Under the pieces are notes generated by a model that saw only the letters and a program-made list of their open reading frames with translations, made no database searches and was not told the DNA's origin. A DNA stretch of 29,875 bases. It comes from a virus. Both the position numbers and the translations under genes were made by a program. The stretch spans positions 1 through 29,875 of the IMG/VR virus record IMGVR_UViG_3300044844_000566; one strand, written 5' to 3'. Positions within the stretch are counted from its first letter, which is position 1. The number at the start of each line of letters is the position of its first letter. Below, one piece after another: positions 670 to 21,847 of the stretch.

Positions 670-1168
670 CCTCTGCAAAGAGGGCCAGGCCAAGTACGAG
701 CGGGTGGTGCATTTCTTCGAGAAGATCCTGCGCCACAGCAAGGGGCAGAACGCCGGCAAGCCGTTCACGCTCCTGCCGTGGCAGCATCACGTCATGCGTG
801 AGCTGTTCGGCCGGCTGAACCCAGACGGCACGCGGCAGCATCGCGTTGGCTACATCGAGCTGCCCAAGAAGCAAGGCAAGAGCACAACACTCGCCGGCAT
901 CGCTCTCTACATGACGGCGTTCGACTCCGAGCCTGGTGCCGAGGTTTACGGTGCGGCCTGCGATCGGGAGCAGGCAGGCATCATCTACCGCGAAGCCGCG
1001 TCGATGGTGCGGGCTTCGCCTGCGTTGTCTCGGCATCTTGAGGTGATCGACAGCCGCAAGACGATCGTGCACAAGGCAAGCAATTCGTTCTACAGGGTAC
1101 TTTCTGCCGACGCCTTCAGAGCGGAAGGGCTAAATATTCACGCCCTCCTGTTCGACGAACTGGGTTGA
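608..1168 (+). CDS. terL: Terminase large subunit, N-terminal ATPase part (gene interrupted)
   Basis: This reading frame encodes the ATPase half of an HK97-type (Terminase_1-like) large terminase, which powers DNA translocation into the prohead. The Walker A-type motif is ELPKKQGKST at residues 84-93. The Walker B motif is HALLFDEL at residues 178-185, with the catalytic Asp183-Glu184. The frame then reads one Gly codon and stops at TGA 1166-1168, exactly where family members continue with His (DELH). The continuation, HAQRDRRLWDAL, begins at 1213 in another frame after a 50-nt insert. The probable full product joins residue 185 to the codon at 1213 and is about 533 aa long, a normal family length. 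The start is GTG 608, inside terS. No other damage is visible, which argues against simple decay. Confidence 0.9.
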   Translation: MARKKSQPTKSKSSSSSTVPDLCKEGQAKYERVVHFFEKILRHSKGQNAGKPFTLLPWQHHVMRELFGRLNPDGTRQHRVGYIELPKKQGKSTTLAGIALYMTAFDSEPGAEVYGAACDREQAGIIYREAASMVRASPALSRHLEVIDSRKTIVHKASNSFYRVLSADAFRAEGLNIHALLFDELG

Positions 1169-1201
1169 GCCCCTCGGGCTTCGGCTCGGGGGGCTCAACC
1201 C
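1162..1201 (+). other. 18-bp hairpin with UUCG tetraloop inside the terL insert
   Basis: Bases 1162-1179 pair with 1184-1201 over 18 bp, including two G-T wobbles (1174/1189 and 1177/1186). The loop is TTCG (1180-1183) closed by a C-G pair, the very stable cUUCGg tetraloop. The stem begins at the last base of the putative take-off codon. No T-tract follows, so this is not an ordinary intrinsic terminator. In T4 gene 60 a comparable UUCG-capped hairpin at the take-off site is needed for bypassing. Confidence 0.85.
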
Positions 1202-1212
1202 GGACAAGCCTG
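1163..1212 (+). other. 50-nt interruption in terL: candidate translational bypass element
   Basis: These 50 nt separate the codons for DEL (ending at 1162) from those for HAQ (starting at 1213). The last codon before the gap is CTG (1160-1162). The last three bases of the gap are also CTG (1210-1212), and this is the only CTG inside the gap. The gap contains an in-frame TGA at 1166-1168 and a strong UUCG-capped hairpin. Removing it restores the conserved DELH motif. Size, matched take-off and landing codons, an early stop codon and the hairpin all parallel the known T4 gene 60 bypass. A difference is that one codon (GGT) lies between the take-off CTG and the stop. A palindromic repeat insertion with a 3-bp target duplication would look the same at DNA level. 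Confidence 0.75.
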
Positions 1213-2259
1213 CACGCTCAAAGAGATCGCCGCCTGTGGGACGCTCTCCGCTACGGCGGCGCGGCTAGGCGATCGCCGCTCATTCTCTCGATCACCACGG
1301 CGGGCTACGACCGCAAGTCGATCTGCTGGGAGCAGCACGCATACGCCGAGCGGTGCATCGCCGATCCCGGCGTGGACCCGGCCTTCTTCGGGTGCATCTA
1401 CGCAGCCTCGCCCGAGGACGATTGGAAGGACTCCAAGACGTGGCACAAGGCCAACCCGTCGCTGGGCGAGACGATCACGGTGGAGTCATTTGCCGCCGAT
1501 GCACGAGAGGCCGAGCAGTCGCCGTCGAAGCTTAATAGCTTTTTGCGATACAGGCTCAATGTCTGGACCACCCAAGACGTTCGCTGGTTGTCTCCAGATA
1601 ACTGGGCGAAGTGCGGCAAGCCGCTGGCCGGCGACCTCGAGCACCGGGAGTGGTTCGCGGGCCTCGACCTTGCAACCACGTACGACCTTTCCGCATTCGT
1701 GCTCGTGAGCCAGGCGGACGATGGCACGTTCGACGTGCTGCCCTACTTCTGGGTGCCGCAGCAGAACGCAGCCGAGCGGGCACAGCGCGACAAGATCGAC
1801 TACCTCGGCTGGATTCGTGACGGCTATATCCGGGCCACGGATGGCAACGTTACCGACTACGAAGTGATTCGCCGTGACATCGTGGAGCTATCGCAGAAGT
1901 TCAACATTCGGCAGGTGGGTATAGATCGCTGGAATGCCACTATGCTCGCCACTGCTCTGCAAGGGGAAGGCGTCAACGTGACAGGCTACGGGCAAGGGTA
2001 CGGCTCAATGTCGAGCCCGAGCCGCGCCCTCGAAAACTACGTGCTGTCCGAAAGAATCCGCCACGCCAATCACCCTGTGCTGTCGTGGATGGCTGGCAAC
2101 GTCGCAGTGCAGACCGACCACCAGGGCAACATCAAGCCGAGCAAGGCTAAGTCAACCGAACGCATTGACGGCATCGTGTCGCTGGTTATGGCACTCGGGC
2201 TTCACGCAGCGGCAACCACAAAGCCAGCCGAACAATCTTGGGACATCCTGAGCATATGA
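1165..2259 (+). CDS. terL: Terminase large subunit, C-terminal part (coupling motif and nuclease)
   Basis: This frame encodes the rest of the large terminase. Homologous sequence starts at His (codon 1213-1215). It includes the ATPase coupling motif SITTAGYD and an RNase H-like nuclease domain with candidate acidic residues in FAGLDLATTYDLS, VGIDRWNA and ERIDGIVSLVMA. This domain cuts concatemeric DNA at the start and end of packaging. The frame is open across the whole insert, and a TTG at 1165 overlaps the upstream TGA (TTGA). A separate polypeptide could therefore start there by coupled reinitiation, carrying a 16-residue Ser/Gly-rich leader. A fused protein made by bypass, or by a -1 slip at G-GGT-TGA, are the alternatives. 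The end overlaps the portal start as ATGA. Confidence 0.88.
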   Translation: MSPSGFGSGGSTRTSLHAQRDRRLWDALRYGGAARRSPLILSITTAGYDRKSICWEQHAYAERCIADPGVDPAFFGCIYAASPEDDWKDSKTWHKANPSLGETITVESFAADAREAEQSPSKLNSFLRYRLNVWTTQDVRWLSPDNWAKCGKPLAGDLEHREWFAGLDLATTYDLSAFVLVSQADDGTFDVLPYFWVPQQNAAERAQRDKIDYLGWIRDGYIRATDGNVTDYEVIRRDIVELSQKFNIRQVGIDRWNATMLATALQGEGVNVTGYGQGYGSMSSPSRALENYVLSERIRHANHPVLSWMAGNVAVQTDHQGNIKPSKAKSTERIDGIVSLVMALGLHAAATTKPAEQSWDILSI

Positions 2260-3548
2260 GCGAACACGCCGCCGCCGACTTCAAGATGTTCGACCTTCGC
2301 GGCATCGACTGGCCCGAGGTGTCGCCGTCTCGGACGCCTTCTGGCATCCGCGTGAACGCCGACAACTCGATGGCGTGCTCGGCCTACACGGCCTGCATTC
2401 GCGTCATATCGGATGCGGTTTCAGCTCTGCCGCTCCACGTCTACGAGCGGATGGCGAACGGCGGCAAGGCCAAGGCCACGAGCCACCCGGTCTACCGCTT
2501 GCTGCACCAGCAGCCCAACCCGTGGCAAACGGCCCAAGAGTTCCGGGATTGGATGACGGGCATGTACTTGCACTACGGTGCGAGCTACGCCGAAATCCGC
2601 CCAGGTGCTCGAGGTGCCGTGTCGGAGCTGTGGCCGCTGCACAGTTCCCGCATGGAAGTCGATCGGCTCTCTGACGGCACGCTGCGGTATCGGTATCGTG
2701 AGCCGAGTGGGCGGGAGACGATCTATCCCCAAGAGCAGATTTTCGCCCTGCGGTTCACGACCGAGGACGGCATCAAGGCAATCCCGACATATAAGATTTT
2801 CCAGAACGCCATCGGTCTGGCCCAAGCGTTGGAGGCTCACGGGTCCACCTACTTCGGCAACGGTGCCCGGCCCGGCATCGTGCTGGAGTCAGAGAACCCG
2901 ATTCCCGTGGAGGCTGCCGAGCGTCTGCGTGAGCAGTGGGAGCGGATGCACCGGGGCGCTGATCGGGCGTTCCGCACGGCGGTCCTGCCGAACGGCGTGA
3001 AGGCTCACGAGCTCAGCGGCAGCAACGAGGCGGCCCAGTTCTTGGAAACGCGGCAGTACCAGGTCATTGAGATCTGCCGGGCGTTCCGCGTGCCGCCCCA
3101 CATGATCCAAGACCTGACCCGCAGTACGTACAGCAACATCGAGGTGCAGGGCACGGAGTTCGTGCAGCACTGCCTGCTGCCGCACCTGAAGAGATGGGAA
3201 GCAGCCATCAGCCGCGATCTGATCGTGGACGATGAGCGGTTCTTCGCGGAGCACTCGGTGAGCGGCCTGCTGCGTGGCGACCACGCGAGCCGGTCGGCCT
3301 ACTACGTCTCTGCCCTTCAGAATGGGTGGATGACCATAAACGAGATCCGCGAGCTCGAGAACCTGAACCCGATCGGGCCGGAAGGCGATCGGCACTTTGT
3401 TCAGCTGAACATGACCACGCTGGATCAGATGGGCCAGCAGCCGCCGGCACCGGAGCCGATGCCCGAGCCGCCCGCCGAAGTAGAAGACAGCCCGGCTGAT
3501 GCCGCCGAGGACCAGGCCGAACAGGAGGAGTACACCGATGGAAATTGA
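2256..3548 (+). CDS. Portal protein, HK97 family
   Basis: This 430-residue protein is the likely dodecameric portal at the capsid vertex, through which DNA is packaged and ejected. Recognisable family features are the early segment 'MACSAYTACIRVISDAVSALPLHVYER', the 'HPVYRLLHQQPNPWQTAQEFRDWM' region, and the central 'ARPGIVLE' and 'FRVPPHMIQD' motifs followed by an LE/STYSNIE segment. The C-terminus is Pro/Glu-rich and probably disordered. The start is ATG 2256, overlapping the terL stop as ATGA. Starting at the upstream TTG 2238 would only add residues inside terL. Length and gene order (terL, portal, protease, capsid) fit HK97-like phages well. Confidence 0.93.
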   Translation: MSEHAAADFKMFDLRGIDWPEVSPSRTPSGIRVNADNSMACSAYTACIRVISDAVSALPLHVYERMANGGKAKATSHPVYRLLHQQPNPWQTAQEFRDWMTGMYLHYGASYAEIRPGARGAVSELWPLHSSRMEVDRLSDGTLRYRYREPSGRETIYPQEQIFALRFTTEDGIKAIPTYKIFQNAIGLAQALEAHGSTYFGNGARPGIVLESENPIPVEAAERLREQWERMHRGADRAFRTAVLPNGVKAHELSGSNEAAQFLETRQYQVIEICRAFRVPPHMIQDLTRSTYSNIEVQGTEFVQHCLLPHLKRWEAAISRDLIVDDERFFAEHSVSGLLRGDHASRSAYYVSALQNGWMTINEIRELENLNPIGPEGDRHFVQLNMTTLDQMGQQPPAPEPMPEPPAEVEDSPADAAEDQAEQEEYTDGN

Positions 3549-4209
3549 ACGCCGCTGCCTAACCGTAGACGAGGCACCCGAGTGCGAGCTGCAGATCGAA
3601 ACACGCTCCAGCGGTCGCGAAGCGATCCGGGGGCTGGCGGTGCCCTACAACCGGCTATCCCTTGACCTTGGTGGCTTTCGGGAGCGAATCCTGCCCGGTG
3701 CCTTTGATAAGGTGCTGAACCGCCAGCGGGGCAAGGGCGAGATCCTGAGCTACTACAACCACAACAGCGACATGCTGCTGGGCCGGGAGTCGGCTGGCAC
3801 GCTCGAGATCATCGCTGACGATCGTGGCATCTCGTATGTCGTGGAGCCGCCGGATACCTCGGCGGGCCGTGACGTTCTCGCTTTGGTGCGTTCTCGGAAT
3901 CTGCGTGGCAGCTCGTTTGCGTTCACCGTGAGCCAGAAGGGCGAGCGGTTCACAACCGACGAAACTGGCAAGGCGATCCGCGAGGTGGTGGAGGCTTCGG
4001 GCTTGTACGAAGTCGGCCCCGTCAACGTCCCGGCCTACGGCAGCGCCACGTCTGCGGTTGTGGCCCAACGCTCGTACGAGGCGTGGCTGGCATCGCAGGC
4101 CGCAGCAGTCGAGGCAGATGCGGATGCCGAACCAGAAATGAAGAAGGCCATGCGTTCGCTGGTCCGTGACGCAGCTGCTGCGTGGGCTCTGAGGTTGCGA
4201 CGTGTCTGA
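3538..4209 (+). CDS. HK97-type prohead protease (S78 family)
   Basis: This 223-residue serine protease should cleave the scaffold-like N-terminal domain of the capsid protein and then itself during head maturation. Candidate catalytic residues are His75 in SYYNHNSDMLLGR, Ser125 or Ser126 in LRGSSFAF and Glu158 in LYEVGPVNVPAY, the order known for this family. The N-terminal 'GYAVPYN/LDLGGFRERILPGAF'-type segment is also typical. The start ATG 3538 is chosen because a full AGGAGG lies at 3523-3528, nine bases upstream. The gene overlaps the portal end. Its C-terminal 40 residues are Ala/Glu-rich and basic at the end, possibly a self-cleaved tail. Confidence 0.93.
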   Translation: MEIERRCLTVDEAPECELQIETRSSGREAIRGLAVPYNRLSLDLGGFRERILPGAFDKVLNRQRGKGEILSYYNHNSDMLLGRESAGTLEIIADDRGISYVVEPPDTSAGRDVLALVRSRNLRGSSFAFTVSQKGERFTTDETGKAIREVVEASGLYEVGPVNVPAYGSATSAVVAQRSYEAWLASQAAAVEADADAEPEMKKAMRSLVRDAAAAWALRLRRV

Positions 4210-10197: not shown

Positions 10198-11535
10198 ATG
10201 AGTACGGCACTTGGATTGGCAATGCAGATCAGTGCCAACACGGCCCAGCTGGCTCAGGCTGTGGCCGATGTGAATGCCAAGCTCGACTCTATGGGCGAGG
10301 CTGGCAAGAAAGCGTCCAGCGATCTCGGCACGCTGAAGAACATCGAGATTGGCAAGCTAGCTCTGGGCGGCATCCAGGCGGCAACCACTGCTTTTCTCAG
10401 CCTGACGAGCGCGGTGACTGGGGCCGTCACGTCTGTGACATCGTTTGCCCTGAGCGTGGGCGAAGAGCTCGACGCACTGAACGACGTGGCCAACCGGACA
10501 GGCGTTGGCGTCGAGGCGTTGCAGGCGTATGCACGGGCCGCCGCCGATACTGGCGTCAGCGTCGAATCGTTCGCCAAGCAGATTCAGAAACTGACGGTCA
10601 ACATTGGTGCGGCCTCGCTGGACGATAAGGCCCAAAAGAAGTTCGAGGCCCTTGGCATCGTCTTTGAGGAGCTGAAGGCGGCGACCCCAGAGCAGCAGTT
10701 CGAGCAGGTGGTGGATGCGATCTCTCGGATTGCAGACCCTGCCGAGCGGGCCGCCACGGCGGTCAAGTTCTTTGGCAAGGGCGGCATCGAGCTTGGCGAG
10801 TTGTTCACGCTTGGCCCTGGTGCGCTCACGAATATGAGGCAGGAAGCCATCGCGCTCGGCCAGGTTGTCGATGCAGATGCCGTCAAGGCGATCGACAACA
10901 TGAACGATTCATTCGCTGCGGTGTATGCCACGGTCAAAGGCCTGACAGGCACGATTCTCGGCGAGCTTGCTGGCCCAATTAGCACGATCGCACAGGAGCT
11001 TCTTGGAGTAATTAGGCAGGCCGGGCCGCAGCAGATTGCCCAGCAGGTGGCCAGCGGCTTGCTCGATTTCATCAAGCTGGCTGGCAATGCGTTCTTCCAG
11101 TTGGCTGAATTTATCGAGGCGTTTGTAAAGAAGTTCGCTCCTGTCCTCGGGCTGGACATCCGCAACGAAGCCGAGAAAGAACTGGACGCACTGCGCACTC
11201 AGCAGCAGGCGGCAGCACAGGGGCAAGGCGCAGCTGTTGACGGCTTTGGCAGGCCGATCGCAAACGCTGCAGCCGTCCAGGAGGCGGATCGTGCGCGAGT
11301 CGAACGGATTGCACAACTCGAGGCGCAGATCGCCGCAGAGGCATCCAACAGCGTGCTTAATCGTTTCCAGGCCAACTTCAACGCAGCCATCGACACGGCA
11401 ACTCAATCACTGCAGCAGAAGATGGAGCAGAGCGCCGCAAGCACTGCACCAAACGCCGCCGAGGAAAAGCAGGTCACGCTGCTCGAGCAGATCAACCGAA
11501 ATGGCCAGATCGGAACCGTGGAGATCCTGAACTAG
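10198..11535 (+). CDS. Tail tape measure protein
   Basis: This 445-residue protein starts at ATG 10198, one base after the chaperone stop. It is Ala/Gln-rich and almost entirely helical. It has two hydrophobic stretches around residues 55-95 (LGGIQAATTAFLSLTSAVTGAV) and 235-310, and a long coiled-coil-like C-terminal half with many Gln and Ala. In siphophages this protein sets tail length at roughly 0.15 nm per residue, so a short tail of somewhat under 70 nm would be expected. The segment DALNDVANRTGVGVEALQAYARAA is typical of tape measure N-terminal regions. Confidence 0.85.
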   Translation: MSTALGLAMQISANTAQLAQAVADVNAKLDSMGEAGKKASSDLGTLKNIEIGKLALGGIQAATTAFLSLTSAVTGAVTSVTSFALSVGEELDALNDVANRTGVGVEALQAYARAAADTGVSVESFAKQIQKLTVNIGAASLDDKAQKKFEALGIVFEELKAATPEQQFEQVVDAISRIADPAERAATAVKFFGKGGIELGELFTLGPGALTNMRQEAIALGQVVDADAVKAIDNMNDSFAAVYATVKGLTGTILGELAGPISTIAQELLGVIRQAGPQQIAQQVASGLLDFIKLAGNAFFQLAEFIEAFVKKFAPVLGLDIRNEAEKELDALRTQQQAAAQGQGAAVDGFGRPIANAAAVQEADRARVERIAQLEAQIAAEASNSVLNRFQANFNAAIDTATQSLQQKMEQSAASTAPNAAEEKQVTLLEQINRNGQIGTVEILN

Positions 11536-11537
11536 CC

Positions 11538-12422
11538 ATGTCCGTACTTGCCTTCCGCGAAGTTCTGCCGCGCACGTTTACGCATCGGTTTGGCGAAAGC
11601 CCGACTGCAGAGCGGAAGTTCGTAGTCACGACCACGCAGCCTGTCGCGCACCAGCTGCTGCTGAACACCGTTGGCATCTTCCACGGTGCGAGCCATCCGG
11701 AATTCACCTACCTGCGTTGCACGGAAGGCAGCGTCACCGAGCCAGACCGGCAGCACGCCGAGATCACGTACCGCTACGAAGTGCCCAACGTAGGCACGGA
11801 AGACTACCAGCCCAACCCGCTGGCACGCCGTGACGTGTGGTCGTTCTCCGTGTCGAGTGCCGCCGTGCCCGCTTTGTACTACTACCACGGCTCCAGCAAT
11901 TCAGACATCCGCCCGCTCGTCAACGCTGCGGGCGATTACATCGAAGGGCTGCAGGCCGTTGAGGGCGAGATTAAGGCGACGATTACCGGCAACCGCCCGA
12001 CGTTCCCGCTTTCCGTTGCTGGCAGCGTCACAAACTCCATCAACTCCGCACCGTACCTTGGCGGCGCTGCATACACCTGGCTGTGCCAAGGCATCTCCGC
12101 TCAGCAGCAGCTCGAGGTGGTGAACGACGTTGAAGTGAAATACTGGAGCGTAAGCGTCGAGCTTGTGTACCGCTCTAGCACGTGGGTCATGAAGATCCCG
12201 CACGTGGGCTGGCACTACGTCACGGGCGGCAGCAAGACGAAATGCTGGGTGTATCAGGGCGAGGGCAGCGAAAAGGAAAGGGTAGATGCCTCTGCCCCGC
12301 AGCCGCTCACCGAATCCGGCAACATGAAATACCCCGGCGCGGAAGGCAACCCAGACCAGCTGCTGCGTCGCGTCCACCAGGCCATCGACTTCACAGGTTT
12401 TTTCGGCACCCCGCCGTTCTAA
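11538..12422 (+). CDS. Putative tail / virion structural protein
   Basis: This 294-residue protein starts at ATG 11538, two bases after the tape measure stop. It is beta-rich with many aromatic residues and no recognised family. Notable stretches are RTFTHRFGESPTAERKFVV, YRYEVPNVGTEDYQPNPL and HVGWHYVTGGSKTKCWVYQG. Its position after the tape measure corresponds to distal tail or tail-tip genes in other siphophages. A distal tail or baseplate role is an inference from position only. Confidence 0.6.
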   Translation: MSVLAFREVLPRTFTHRFGESPTAERKFVVTTTQPVAHQLLLNTVGIFHGASHPEFTYLRCTEGSVTEPDRQHAEITYRYEVPNVGTEDYQPNPLARRDVWSFSVSSAAVPALYYYHGSSNSDIRPLVNAAGDYIEGLQAVEGEIKATITGNRPTFPLSVAGSVTNSINSAPYLGGAAYTWLCQGISAQQQLEVVNDVEVKYWSVSVELVYRSSTWVMKIPHVGWHYVTGGSKTKCWVYQGEGSEKERVDASAPQPLTESGNMKYPGAEGNPDQLLRRVHQAIDFTGFFGTPPF

Positions 12423-19799: not shown

Positions 19800-20102
19800 A
19801 TGTCCGACTACTTCGCCGAATCGCTCGACACGCTGCCGCTCTTCCGACGCACCGACCCGGTGACGAGCAAGGCCGCAGCTGCTGACGCGAAGACGTTCAG
19901 AGGCGAGCACCACGCGGCGATCCTCGAGGCGCTGAGCCAAGGCCCGGCCGGGGCCAGCGGGATTGCGGCACGGTGTGGCCTGCTCGCCCACCAGGTCAAC
20001 AAGCGGATACACGAGCTCGCCAAGTGCGGGCGGATTGCGGAGACGGGCAACATCGTCACCAGCGCCAGCGGGCGCGGCGAACGGGAATGGAGGGTGTCGT
20101 GA
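19800..20102 (+). CDS. Winged-helix DNA-binding protein
   Basis: This 100-residue protein starts at ATG 19800 (GGAAAGGA just upstream). It contains FRRTDPVTSKAAAADAKTFR followed by a winged-helix core, 'HAAILEALSQGPAGASGIAARCGLLAHQVNKRIHELAKCGRIAETGN'. This 'DPxTSxxAA plus wHTH' layout is common in phage early regions. It could be a transcription regulator of early genes. The stop overlaps the next start as GTGA. Confidence 0.65.
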   Translation: MSDYFAESLDTLPLFRRTDPVTSKAAAADAKTFRGEHHAAILEALSQGPAGASGIAARCGLLAHQVNKRIHELAKCGRIAETGNIVTSASGRGEREWRVS

Positions 20103-21847
20103 GGTTGTTTACCAAGGCACAAAAGCAGGCAGTCGAGCTTGTCACTGGGAAGACAGGGCAAGGCGATCACGTGATTCCTCACAGCAAAGGAGGGCAGACT
20201 AGCGTGGAAAACTGTCAGTTGATTTCAGGCGCAGCCAACGCAAAGAAGGGCTCTTTCTTTTTTAAGCCGCGACGCTGGCAAGAAGAATTCTTCCGCCAAT
20301 GGATCGCGCGCACGATCAACACGTTTCTCTTGATCGTCATTCCCGGAGGCGGGAAGACAATGGCCGCCCTTGAGTCTGCGCGTCGATGGATGGCAGCAGG
20401 GTCAGACCGTCGCCTTATCGTTGTTGTGCCAACGGACAACCTTCGGGAGCAGTGGCAAGAAGAGGCTGTAAAGTTTGGTATCCAACTCCAGACCAAGGAG
20501 TTTGGCACGAACTTCAAGCACGGCTTTCAAGGCGGCGTTGTTTCTTACAGCCTCGTTGCCAGCCAGCCGCTGGTGTTTCGCAAGCTCTGCTCTGTAGCGC
20601 CGACAATGGTGATCTTTGATGAGATTCACCACTGCGGCGAGGAGGCCAGTTTTGGCCGAGGTGTCGGCCAGGCCTTTGAACTCGCGGCCGAGCGACTGCT
20701 GCTATCTGGCACCGCATGGAGAAGCGATGGGACCGCTATCCCGTGGGTTCAATACGACGGCAATGGGTTTGCCGTAGCCGATTACTCGTACGACTACCCG
20801 CACGCACTTACCGATGACGTTGTCCGGTTTCTGGTTTTTGACTACTCGCGCGGAACTATTACGCATGACCTGACTGGAGACAGTCAAACGCTTTCCAGTG
20901 AAAGCACAGAGGACGACGCCGCCCGACTGCTCCGAAGGCTGCTTGACGCTCGCGGCGAGTTTGTCCGCGAGCAGATACGACAGGCGCACCAGAGGCTTTT
21001 GGACGTGCGAGCATCTTTCCCGGACGCCGGGGCTCTGGCTGCCTGCATTGACCAGACGCACGCCGCCATGGTGGCAAATGTGATCCGCGAGGTAACTGGT
21101 TGCGAGCCAAGCGTTATCGTTAGCGACGACAAAGTTGAGAACGATACTGTTCGTTCGTTTCGTGACAGCAAGAAGGAGTGGATCGTAGCGGTTCGCAAGG
21201 TAAGCGAAGGCACCGACATCAAGCGGCTTCAAGTTCTCTGCTACCTAACGAACACAACTGCGGAACTGTTTTTCCGGCAACTTGTCGGCCGCGTTTCTCG
21301 TTATCGAGGCAATGAGGACCGCGAGGCGTATGTCTATCTGCCTGCCGATCCTCGCTTGATTGCCTGCGCACAGAACATCGAAAACGCACAGGTGCAGGCG
21401 CTAAAGAACCAGCGAGATGCTGATGAGGTCGAGCGGGCTCCGCTGGATCGCCAAACCGGGTCGCTGTTTGATTCTTTCTCAACGGCCCATGACGGCACCG
21501 ACCTTGTCATGATCGGAAGCGAGGCTGTGTCAGAGCACGTAGCAAGGCAAATCTCGCAGATCGCAGAGGCTGAGGCGATCCCGATGCAGAAGGTGCTGGC
21601 CGTCATGCAGCGGCTTGGAGTTGGCGGCCAGCAGTCGAGCCCGCAGCCCGTGGCCGTTCGCAGTAAAGAAGAGGAAATGGATGACCTTCGCAAGAAGTGC
21701 AACCAGCAGGCGTTTCGCCTTTCCAAGTTGGCTAAGTGCAGGCCGGACGAAATCAACGGCAAGTTCAAGCCACACAACCAAATGACGGAAGACGAACTGC
21801 GGCGCAAGCTTCGGGCGATCCTCTCGGAGATCGCAAAGTATGCATGA
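20099..21847 (+). CDS. HNH-domain fused SF2 helicase
   Basis: This 582-residue protein starts at GTG 20099, with GGAGG six bases upstream. Residues 1-52 form an HNH-like segment (GDHVIPHSKGGQTSVENCQL and NAKKG) that keeps the His/Asn framework but lacks the usual zinc cysteines. The rest is an SF2 helicase: motif I IPGGGKT (81-87), motif II DEIH (174-177), motif III SGTA (203-206), motif V SEGTDI (369-374) and motif VI QLVGRVSR (394-401). It probably unwinds or remodels DNA in replication, possibly with nicking. The gene is clearly less GC-rich than its neighbours. QTGSLF at 452-457 resembles a sliding clamp-binding motif. Confidence 0.85.
   Translation: MRLFTKAQKQAVELVTGKTGQGDHVIPHSKGGQTSVENCQLISGAANAKKGSFFFKPRRWQEEFFRQWIARTINTFLLIVIPGGGKTMAALESARRWMAAGSDRRLIVVVPTDNLREQWQEEAVKFGIQLQTKEFGTNFKHGFQGGVVSYSLVASQPLVFRKLCSVAPTMVIFDEIHHCGEEASFGRGVGQAFELAAERLLLSGTAWRSDGTAIPWVQYDGNGFAVADYSYDYPHALTDDVVRFLVFDYSRGTITHDLTGDSQTLSSESTEDDAARLLRRLLDARGEFVREQIRQAHQRLLDVRASFPDAGALAACIDQTHAAMVANVIREVTGCEPSVIVSDDKVENDTVRSFRDSKKEWIVAVRKVSEGTDIKRLQVLCYLTNTTAELFFRQLVGRVSRYRGNEDREAYVYLPADPRLIACAQNIENAQVQALKNQRDADEVERAPLDRQTGSLFDSFSTAHDGTDLVMIGSEAVSEHVARQISQIAEAEAIPMQKVLAVMQRLGVGGQQSSPQPVAVRSKEEEMDDLRKKCNQQAFRLSKLAKCRPDEINGKFKPHNQMTEDELRRKLRAILSEIAKYA

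Follow-up and report, generated by a model that had tools for sequence, protein, structure and literature searches.

How can a large terminase gene whose reading frame breaks within one of its most conserved motifs give rise to a complete protein? The question is raised by terL (608-2259; it and the adjacent terS and portal genes lie on the plus strand) of IMG/VR virus record IMGVR_UViG_3300044844_000566, whose 29,875 bases constitute the window analyzed here. The 5' part of the gene (608-1162; Pfam TerL_ATPase, E 1.3e-14) encodes the ATPase domain as far as FDEL, including both Walker motifs (A and B), shares 99% identity with the same part of uninterrupted relatives and belongs to a frame (608-1165) that ends in LLFDEL-G before a TGA stop (1166-1168). 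The 3' part (1213-2259; Pfam TerL_nuclease, E 7.6e-46) resumes in a frame offset by 50 nucleotides (nt), encoding HAQRDRRLWDALRYGG and the nuclease half (1213-2256) before its own stop (2257-2259). Relative to uninterrupted relatives, the intervening gap is exactly 50 nt long (1163-1212) and consists of a non-coding insert, made up of a hairpin and a 9-nt unpaired tail, ACAAGCCTG. CTG is both the last codon before the gap (1160-1162), the proposed take-off codon, and the triplet with which the gap ends (1210-1212), the proposed landing codon.

Frames, Pfam halves and relatives all confirm the break and its identical border codons as described in an original prediction, made from the sequence of the window alone, according to which TerL is produced by programmed translational bypass. 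With a probability of about 0.72, we consider that the insert belongs to a set of mobile translational-bypass cassettes that resemble T4 gene 60 but form a separate, multi-site family, and that its gap probably stays in the RNA and is skipped by the ribosome. Support for programmed bypass comes from insertion at five sites and in all frames, stop codons at the seams, covariation within the hairpin, matched ends at four of the five sites and purifying selection on terL.

A search with the downstream half of terL yielded 285 related loci; among the best 80, which were kept, most are gapless and 14 are interrupted by exactly 50 nt, at three positions. Further scans, together with a frame-break scan using 146 uninterrupted reference TerLs, brought the number of insertion sites to five, all of which adjoin the Walker A and B motifs within the ATPase domain, in terL genes that are otherwise intact. 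These are site A, occupied in the window, at Walker B (FDEL/HAQ; 50 nt); site B (FRAEGL/NIH; 48 or 50 nt); site C, the commonest (RRLW/DAL; 50, 51 or 52 nt); and, at Walker A, sites D (YIEL/PKKQGKS; 49 or 52 nt) and E (PKKN/GKS; 46 nt). About 74 contigs are carriers (47 at C, 21 at A or B with the window among them, 5 at D and 2 at E), with L088, the sole double carrier, counted in two lists on account of its B and C inserts; the family comprises 33 distinct hairpins, and terL is uninterrupted in 251 related loci (some contigs counted twice).

The window insert is also found in two other IMG/VR contigs with 100% protein identity, and homologous inserts occupy site A in four diverged relatives (L019, L086, L436 and L437); this recurrence argues that the insert is due neither to chance nor to misassembly, which the original prediction had named as an objection to itself. 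Each whole phage record contains one copy (two in L088), in terL only, which sets the element apart from transposons and from scattered repeats of the repetitive extragenic palindrome (REP) type; it is absent from 13 non-carrier records, and blastn against annotated phages and plasmids retrieved no copy. All 46 matches of a C-type pattern fall within terL. In the pattern scans, a match in L350 revealed site D, and the remaining ones are ordinary terminators or chance matches. Matches in Planctomycetota genomes are apparently intergenic hairpins that do not resemble the terL copies. The nearest relatives of the phage are themselves Planctomycetota MAGs, a weak hint as to the host. On a tree of the nuclease half, carriers appear as single tips or small clades dispersed among non-carriers, which implies that movement, or gain and loss, of the element is frequent. 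The comparison with related phages advocated in the original prediction has thus revealed a mobile family rather than a single event.

The anatomy of the element is that of a hairpin of ~20 base pairs (bp), whose start lies within, or adjacent to, the final codon of the upstream exon, followed by a tail of 5-12 nt that is mostly A/C-rich. In the window, the hairpin (1160-1203) matches covariance model R1 with 59.2 bits and has a fold energy of -43.5 kcal/mol (z = -7.6 relative to shuffles). Its UUCG loop and its start at the take-off codon are as first described, but its stem amounts to 20 bp and not 18, since the take-off codon, involved in the first three pairs, contributes its C and T to the stem as well. 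The stem begins with the take-off codon at sites A, B and D and overlaps it at C and E; in every copy at sites A to D it spans 20 positions, 18-20 of them paired, and this constant length suggests a geometric constraint. Among 26 distinct hairpins, pairing is found in 95% of alignment cells and 14 of the 20 stem pairs have changed on both sides, a value reached by none of 500 shuffles (0/500) and far above that of a slid-partner control. Over the 33 distinct hairpins, stem cells include 546 Watson-Crick, 100 G.U and 3 A.C combinations; because G.U is tolerated and A.C is not, this composition points to a hairpin that acts, and is conserved, as sense-strand RNA rather than as DNA. Three site C copies (L314, L325 and L337) have a swapped upper stem (CTCTGAG-GAGA-CTCAGGG) on a lower stem that is kept, and a stop directly before the resume codon.

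With regard to frame INDEPENDENCE, insert lengths of 46, 48, 49, 50, 51 and 52 nt cover all three reading frames, and the copies that are in frame (48 and 51 nt) all contain stop codons. In four carriers a stop at the seam, or one codon before it, also closes the resumed frame (TAA-CTG in L095, TAG-CTT in L395, TGA before GAC in L015 and L314), with the nearest ATG or GTG located 34-47 codons past the seam; the codons just past the seam, which fall in the regions of Walker A and of Walker B, are conserved in protein and vary in DNA. Decoding must therefore come from upstream and resume at the seam; readthrough, simple frameshifting and re-initiation thereby drop out as explanations for the family in general. 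The TGA that was first placed one codon after take-off in the window is in fact the second codon past it, with one sense codon in between (CTG GGT TGA), and is not conserved: in other copies the distance from take-off to the stop ranges from 1 to >100 codons, so that the stop directly after take-off of the T4 gene 60 type is not a shared feature of the family.

Codons downstream of the insert stay under purifying selection, as judged by their ratio of nonsynonymous to synonymous differences (pN/pS), whose median is ~0.10 between carriers and the nearest non-carrier and which ranges from 0.04 to 0.24 between carriers of the same site. The upstream peptide is a conserved TerL, alike in carriers and non-carriers, and the earlier view of a gene under selection with both halves intact is borne out by the low carrier values. 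Relative to the nearest non-carrier, pN/pS is 0.099 for carriers and 0.057 for non-carriers; we attribute the higher carrier value to a larger nearest-neighbour distance, and selection may be mildly relaxed in carriers.

Translation by bypass would proceed as follows. A ribosome would arrive at the take-off codon (CTG at site A) and, with CTG in its P site, would be stalled by the hairpin lying in or against the A site; the peptidyl-tRNA would release, the ribosome would pass the hairpin, and the tRNA would re-pair with the matching triplet that closes the tail (CTG 1210-1212), so that decoding could restart at CAC 1213 and yield full-length TerL. If a single peptidyl-tRNA re-pairs, the insert should end in the take-off codon or in a synonymous one, as found at A (CTG to CTG in all copies), B (CTG to CTG, with a single CTA in L118), D (CTG to CTG, or to CTT in L395/L399) and E (AAT to AAC).

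Between phages, the element would spread by recombination along with a stretch of its 5' flank, a process perhaps driven by a putative terL-targeting nuclease, none being identified in HNH and GIY-YIG searches. At site B, all carriers share the same 39 nt ahead of the insert, even though the identity of their TerLs to that of the window falls to 57%, and the 3' flank differs from its first codon onward. Synonymous identity is elevated on the 5' side only (0.79 vs 0.51 at site C), and synonymous codons upstream of the window insert (1100-1162) travel with it, being shared almost base for base in L001, L019 and L086 within the small sample of site A. This one-sided sharing differs from the symmetric tract expected of homing. 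HNH genes are found in carriers and non-carriers alike, with no homing endonuclease gene specific to carriers, and no GIY-YIG gene was detected in 38 records, many of them fragments. A helicase-like protein encoded elsewhere in the window (19973-21847) shows a weak HNH match at residues 63-84 and may be a nuclease-helicase fusion.

The 5' flank of site B also harbors an 8-bp stem-loop, which ends 10 nt before take-off, is made from codons unused by non-carriers, folding being stronger than in the latter (p = 0.0006); such a structure behind the take-off codon is likewise strong at E (n = 2) and absent at C, so that the general 5' stem-loop that had been expected holds for B and E only. A downstream stem-loop finds no general support, site C carriers being less structured there. 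Compared with the same codons in non-carriers, the flanks of site C are far less structured on both sides (5', -7.3 vs -13.6 kcal/mol; 3', -11.7 vs -21.4 kcal/mol), and their openness may be part of the signal.

Several of these observations weigh against bypass by mobile cassettes. The match between take-off and landing codons, first noted in the window and found at A, B and E and in most D copies, is broken in L375/L376 (CTG to CCG) and at site C, where TGG is followed by a last triplet AGA, CGC, CGA or TGA; there, re-pairing of tRNA-Trp would be poor, and the most populated site remains the weak point of the bypass reading. The 5' stem-loop is not general, and site C carriers have unusually unstructured flanks; flank sharing may reflect recombination alone; and the stem, with ~20 bp and -40 to -50 kcal/mol, greatly exceeds the 10 bp of gene 60 in strength. 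Other landings at site C, where the resume codon is GAY in every copy, were considered and rejected: GCT to GCA, with loss of Asp, conflicts with the invariable GAY and with GTC in L435; CTC to a Leu codon, with loss of W-D-A, conflicts with ATT at that position in L339; and CGC to CGN, with loss of L-W, does not fit the AGA and TGA variants. To go by the title of a 2004 study by Herr that PMC3014915 cites, minimal pairing can reportedly suffice.

The best surviving rival, which we nevertheless regard as improbable, is a new and very small RNA-level intervening sequence, whose hairpin would be cut from the mRNA and its ends joined by phage or host before translation. Seamless and frame-independent restoration of TerL, sense-strand covariation and mobility would fit such an excision equally well, and, as it needs no matched codons, it would also cover site C and L375; yet it gives no reason for insert ends to retain Leu or Asn codons matched to take-off, and the cut points that it implies vary relative to the stem, falling within stem bases 0-3 at A and B and after base 4 or 5 at C. 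Rfam yielded no match up to E = 1, a result that speaks against group I, group II and other catalogued introns, and we know of no intron class that is so small and made of a hairpin only.

Separate synthesis of the two halves by termination and re-initiation, followed by their assembly, is very unlikely. In the window, a TTG that overlaps the TGA stop (1165-1168) could couple re-initiation. The 3' part there has no ATG or GTG among its first 53 codons past the seam. Many copies, however, offer no start codon ahead of the seam where the downstream frame is open, and in the four carriers with a closed seam the codons that follow are conserved nonetheless. Even harder to credit is an inactivating insertion, be it in a dead terL, a decaying prophage or an erroneous assembly: although the 50 nt break the frame and uninterrupted relatives exist, the insert recurs across the carrier contigs with low pN/pS and intact halves, and the window retains intact terS (196-669; small terminase, Pfam Terminase_4, E 2.3e-18), portal (2238-3548; Pfam Phage_portal, E 6.5e-106), protease, capsid, RecT, helicase and beta clamp genes, at variance with the dead prophage full of broken genes that the original prediction had envisaged as its own refutation. 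Least plausible of all is an insert that is read through or entered by a -1 frameshift, adding ~16-17 residues to TerL through a downstream frame that is open across the insert in the window and some other copies, since it is contradicted by the use of all three frames, the stops in the in-frame copies, the closed seams of L095, L395, L015 and L314 and the lack of a slippery site shared by the family.

To our knowledge, efficient bypass has so far been described for a single case on bacterial ribosomes, T4 gene 60, and for yeast mitochondria; a literature search, with subscription journals mostly outside its scope, returned no report of elements such as those in terL. Somewhat less firmly than bypass by mobile cassettes as such, we favor the view that they represent the first mobile translational-bypass family in bacterial viruses, made up of selfish RNA hairpins of ~50 nt, which enter a single essential gene at conserved codons and are rendered silent because the ribosome jumps over them; at site C this would include a landing without a matching codon, if true a new landing mode. 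The family illustrates the persistence of a mobile, frame-breaking insert within an essential gene, and its dozens of natural variants, with five sites, six lengths and compensated stems, make the rules of take-off, hairpin length and landing readable from evolution. Gene finders call such terL genes broken, though they may be functional.

Among known insertions, related terL genes (L396, L425, L430 and L339) have inteins in their Walker A region too, suggesting that this conserved region attracts insertions, but inteins are spliced as proteins and here measure ~0.4-1 kilobases (kb), compared to ~50 non-coding nt for the hairpin elements. They are found at GK/S of Walker A, with lengths of ~1 kb (729-1744 in L396; L425/L430) or, as a remnant, ~0.4 kb (2996-3381 in L339); L339 combines this intein-like insert with a site C hairpin. 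Two TerL relatives from Planctomycetota genomes (L448 and L449) have open frames of >700 residues, relative to the usual 520-570, and may contain inteins.

The candidate bypass of Streptomyces phage Hau3 also concerns a phage large terminase gene (PMC5009743), annotated as a misc_feature in its record; its gap, however, is much shorter and tied to a UUA codon (PMC5009743), and hairpin model R1 finds no match there. The same record (L456, phiHau3), in which the broken terL lies at 2329-3995, carries the annotation of a second possible recoding event (11108-11832) before the tape measure gene. The byps of Magnusiomyces capitatus mitochondria likewise are many short frame-breaking inserts in essential genes, some with imperfect landing matches (PMC5009743). 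Unlike the terL elements, which share a conserved hairpin within one gene and involve phages and the bacterial ribosome, they are mitochondrial, occupy 81 positions in 12 genes and are apparently independent of mRNA context (PMC5009743), the comparison being one of descriptions and not of sequences.

The closest parallel is T4 gene 60, in which two parts of one protein also surround a non-coding gap, corresponding here to TerL_ATPase and TerL_nuclease on either side of 50 nt. Both systems have a take-off hairpin that includes the take-off codon, with a UUCG loop (for terL, in the window), which a ribosome with CTG in its P site would meet right at the A site (PMC3014915, PMC11194080); the 5' stem-loop that helps drive bypass in gene 60 (PMC5009743, PMC11194080) has a counterpart at site B. 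Moreover, sliding on gene 60 stays processive for gaps of up to 56 nt (PMC11194080), a range that includes all terL insert lengths, and we count this agreement in favor of bypass. The two differ in gene, with no detected homology (R1 has no match in T4), in stem length (10 bp in gene 60, ~20 bp in terL, where the hairpin takes up ~80% of the gap), in the post-take-off stop, which is not conserved in terL, and in the landing match, which is absent at site C. In contrast to a homing cassette of the type of mobA, which lies next to gene 60, the HNH and GIY-YIG searches identified no nuclease specific to carriers of the terL inserts; and whereas gene 60 is a single case, the terL elements occupy five sites with lengths of 46-52 nt.
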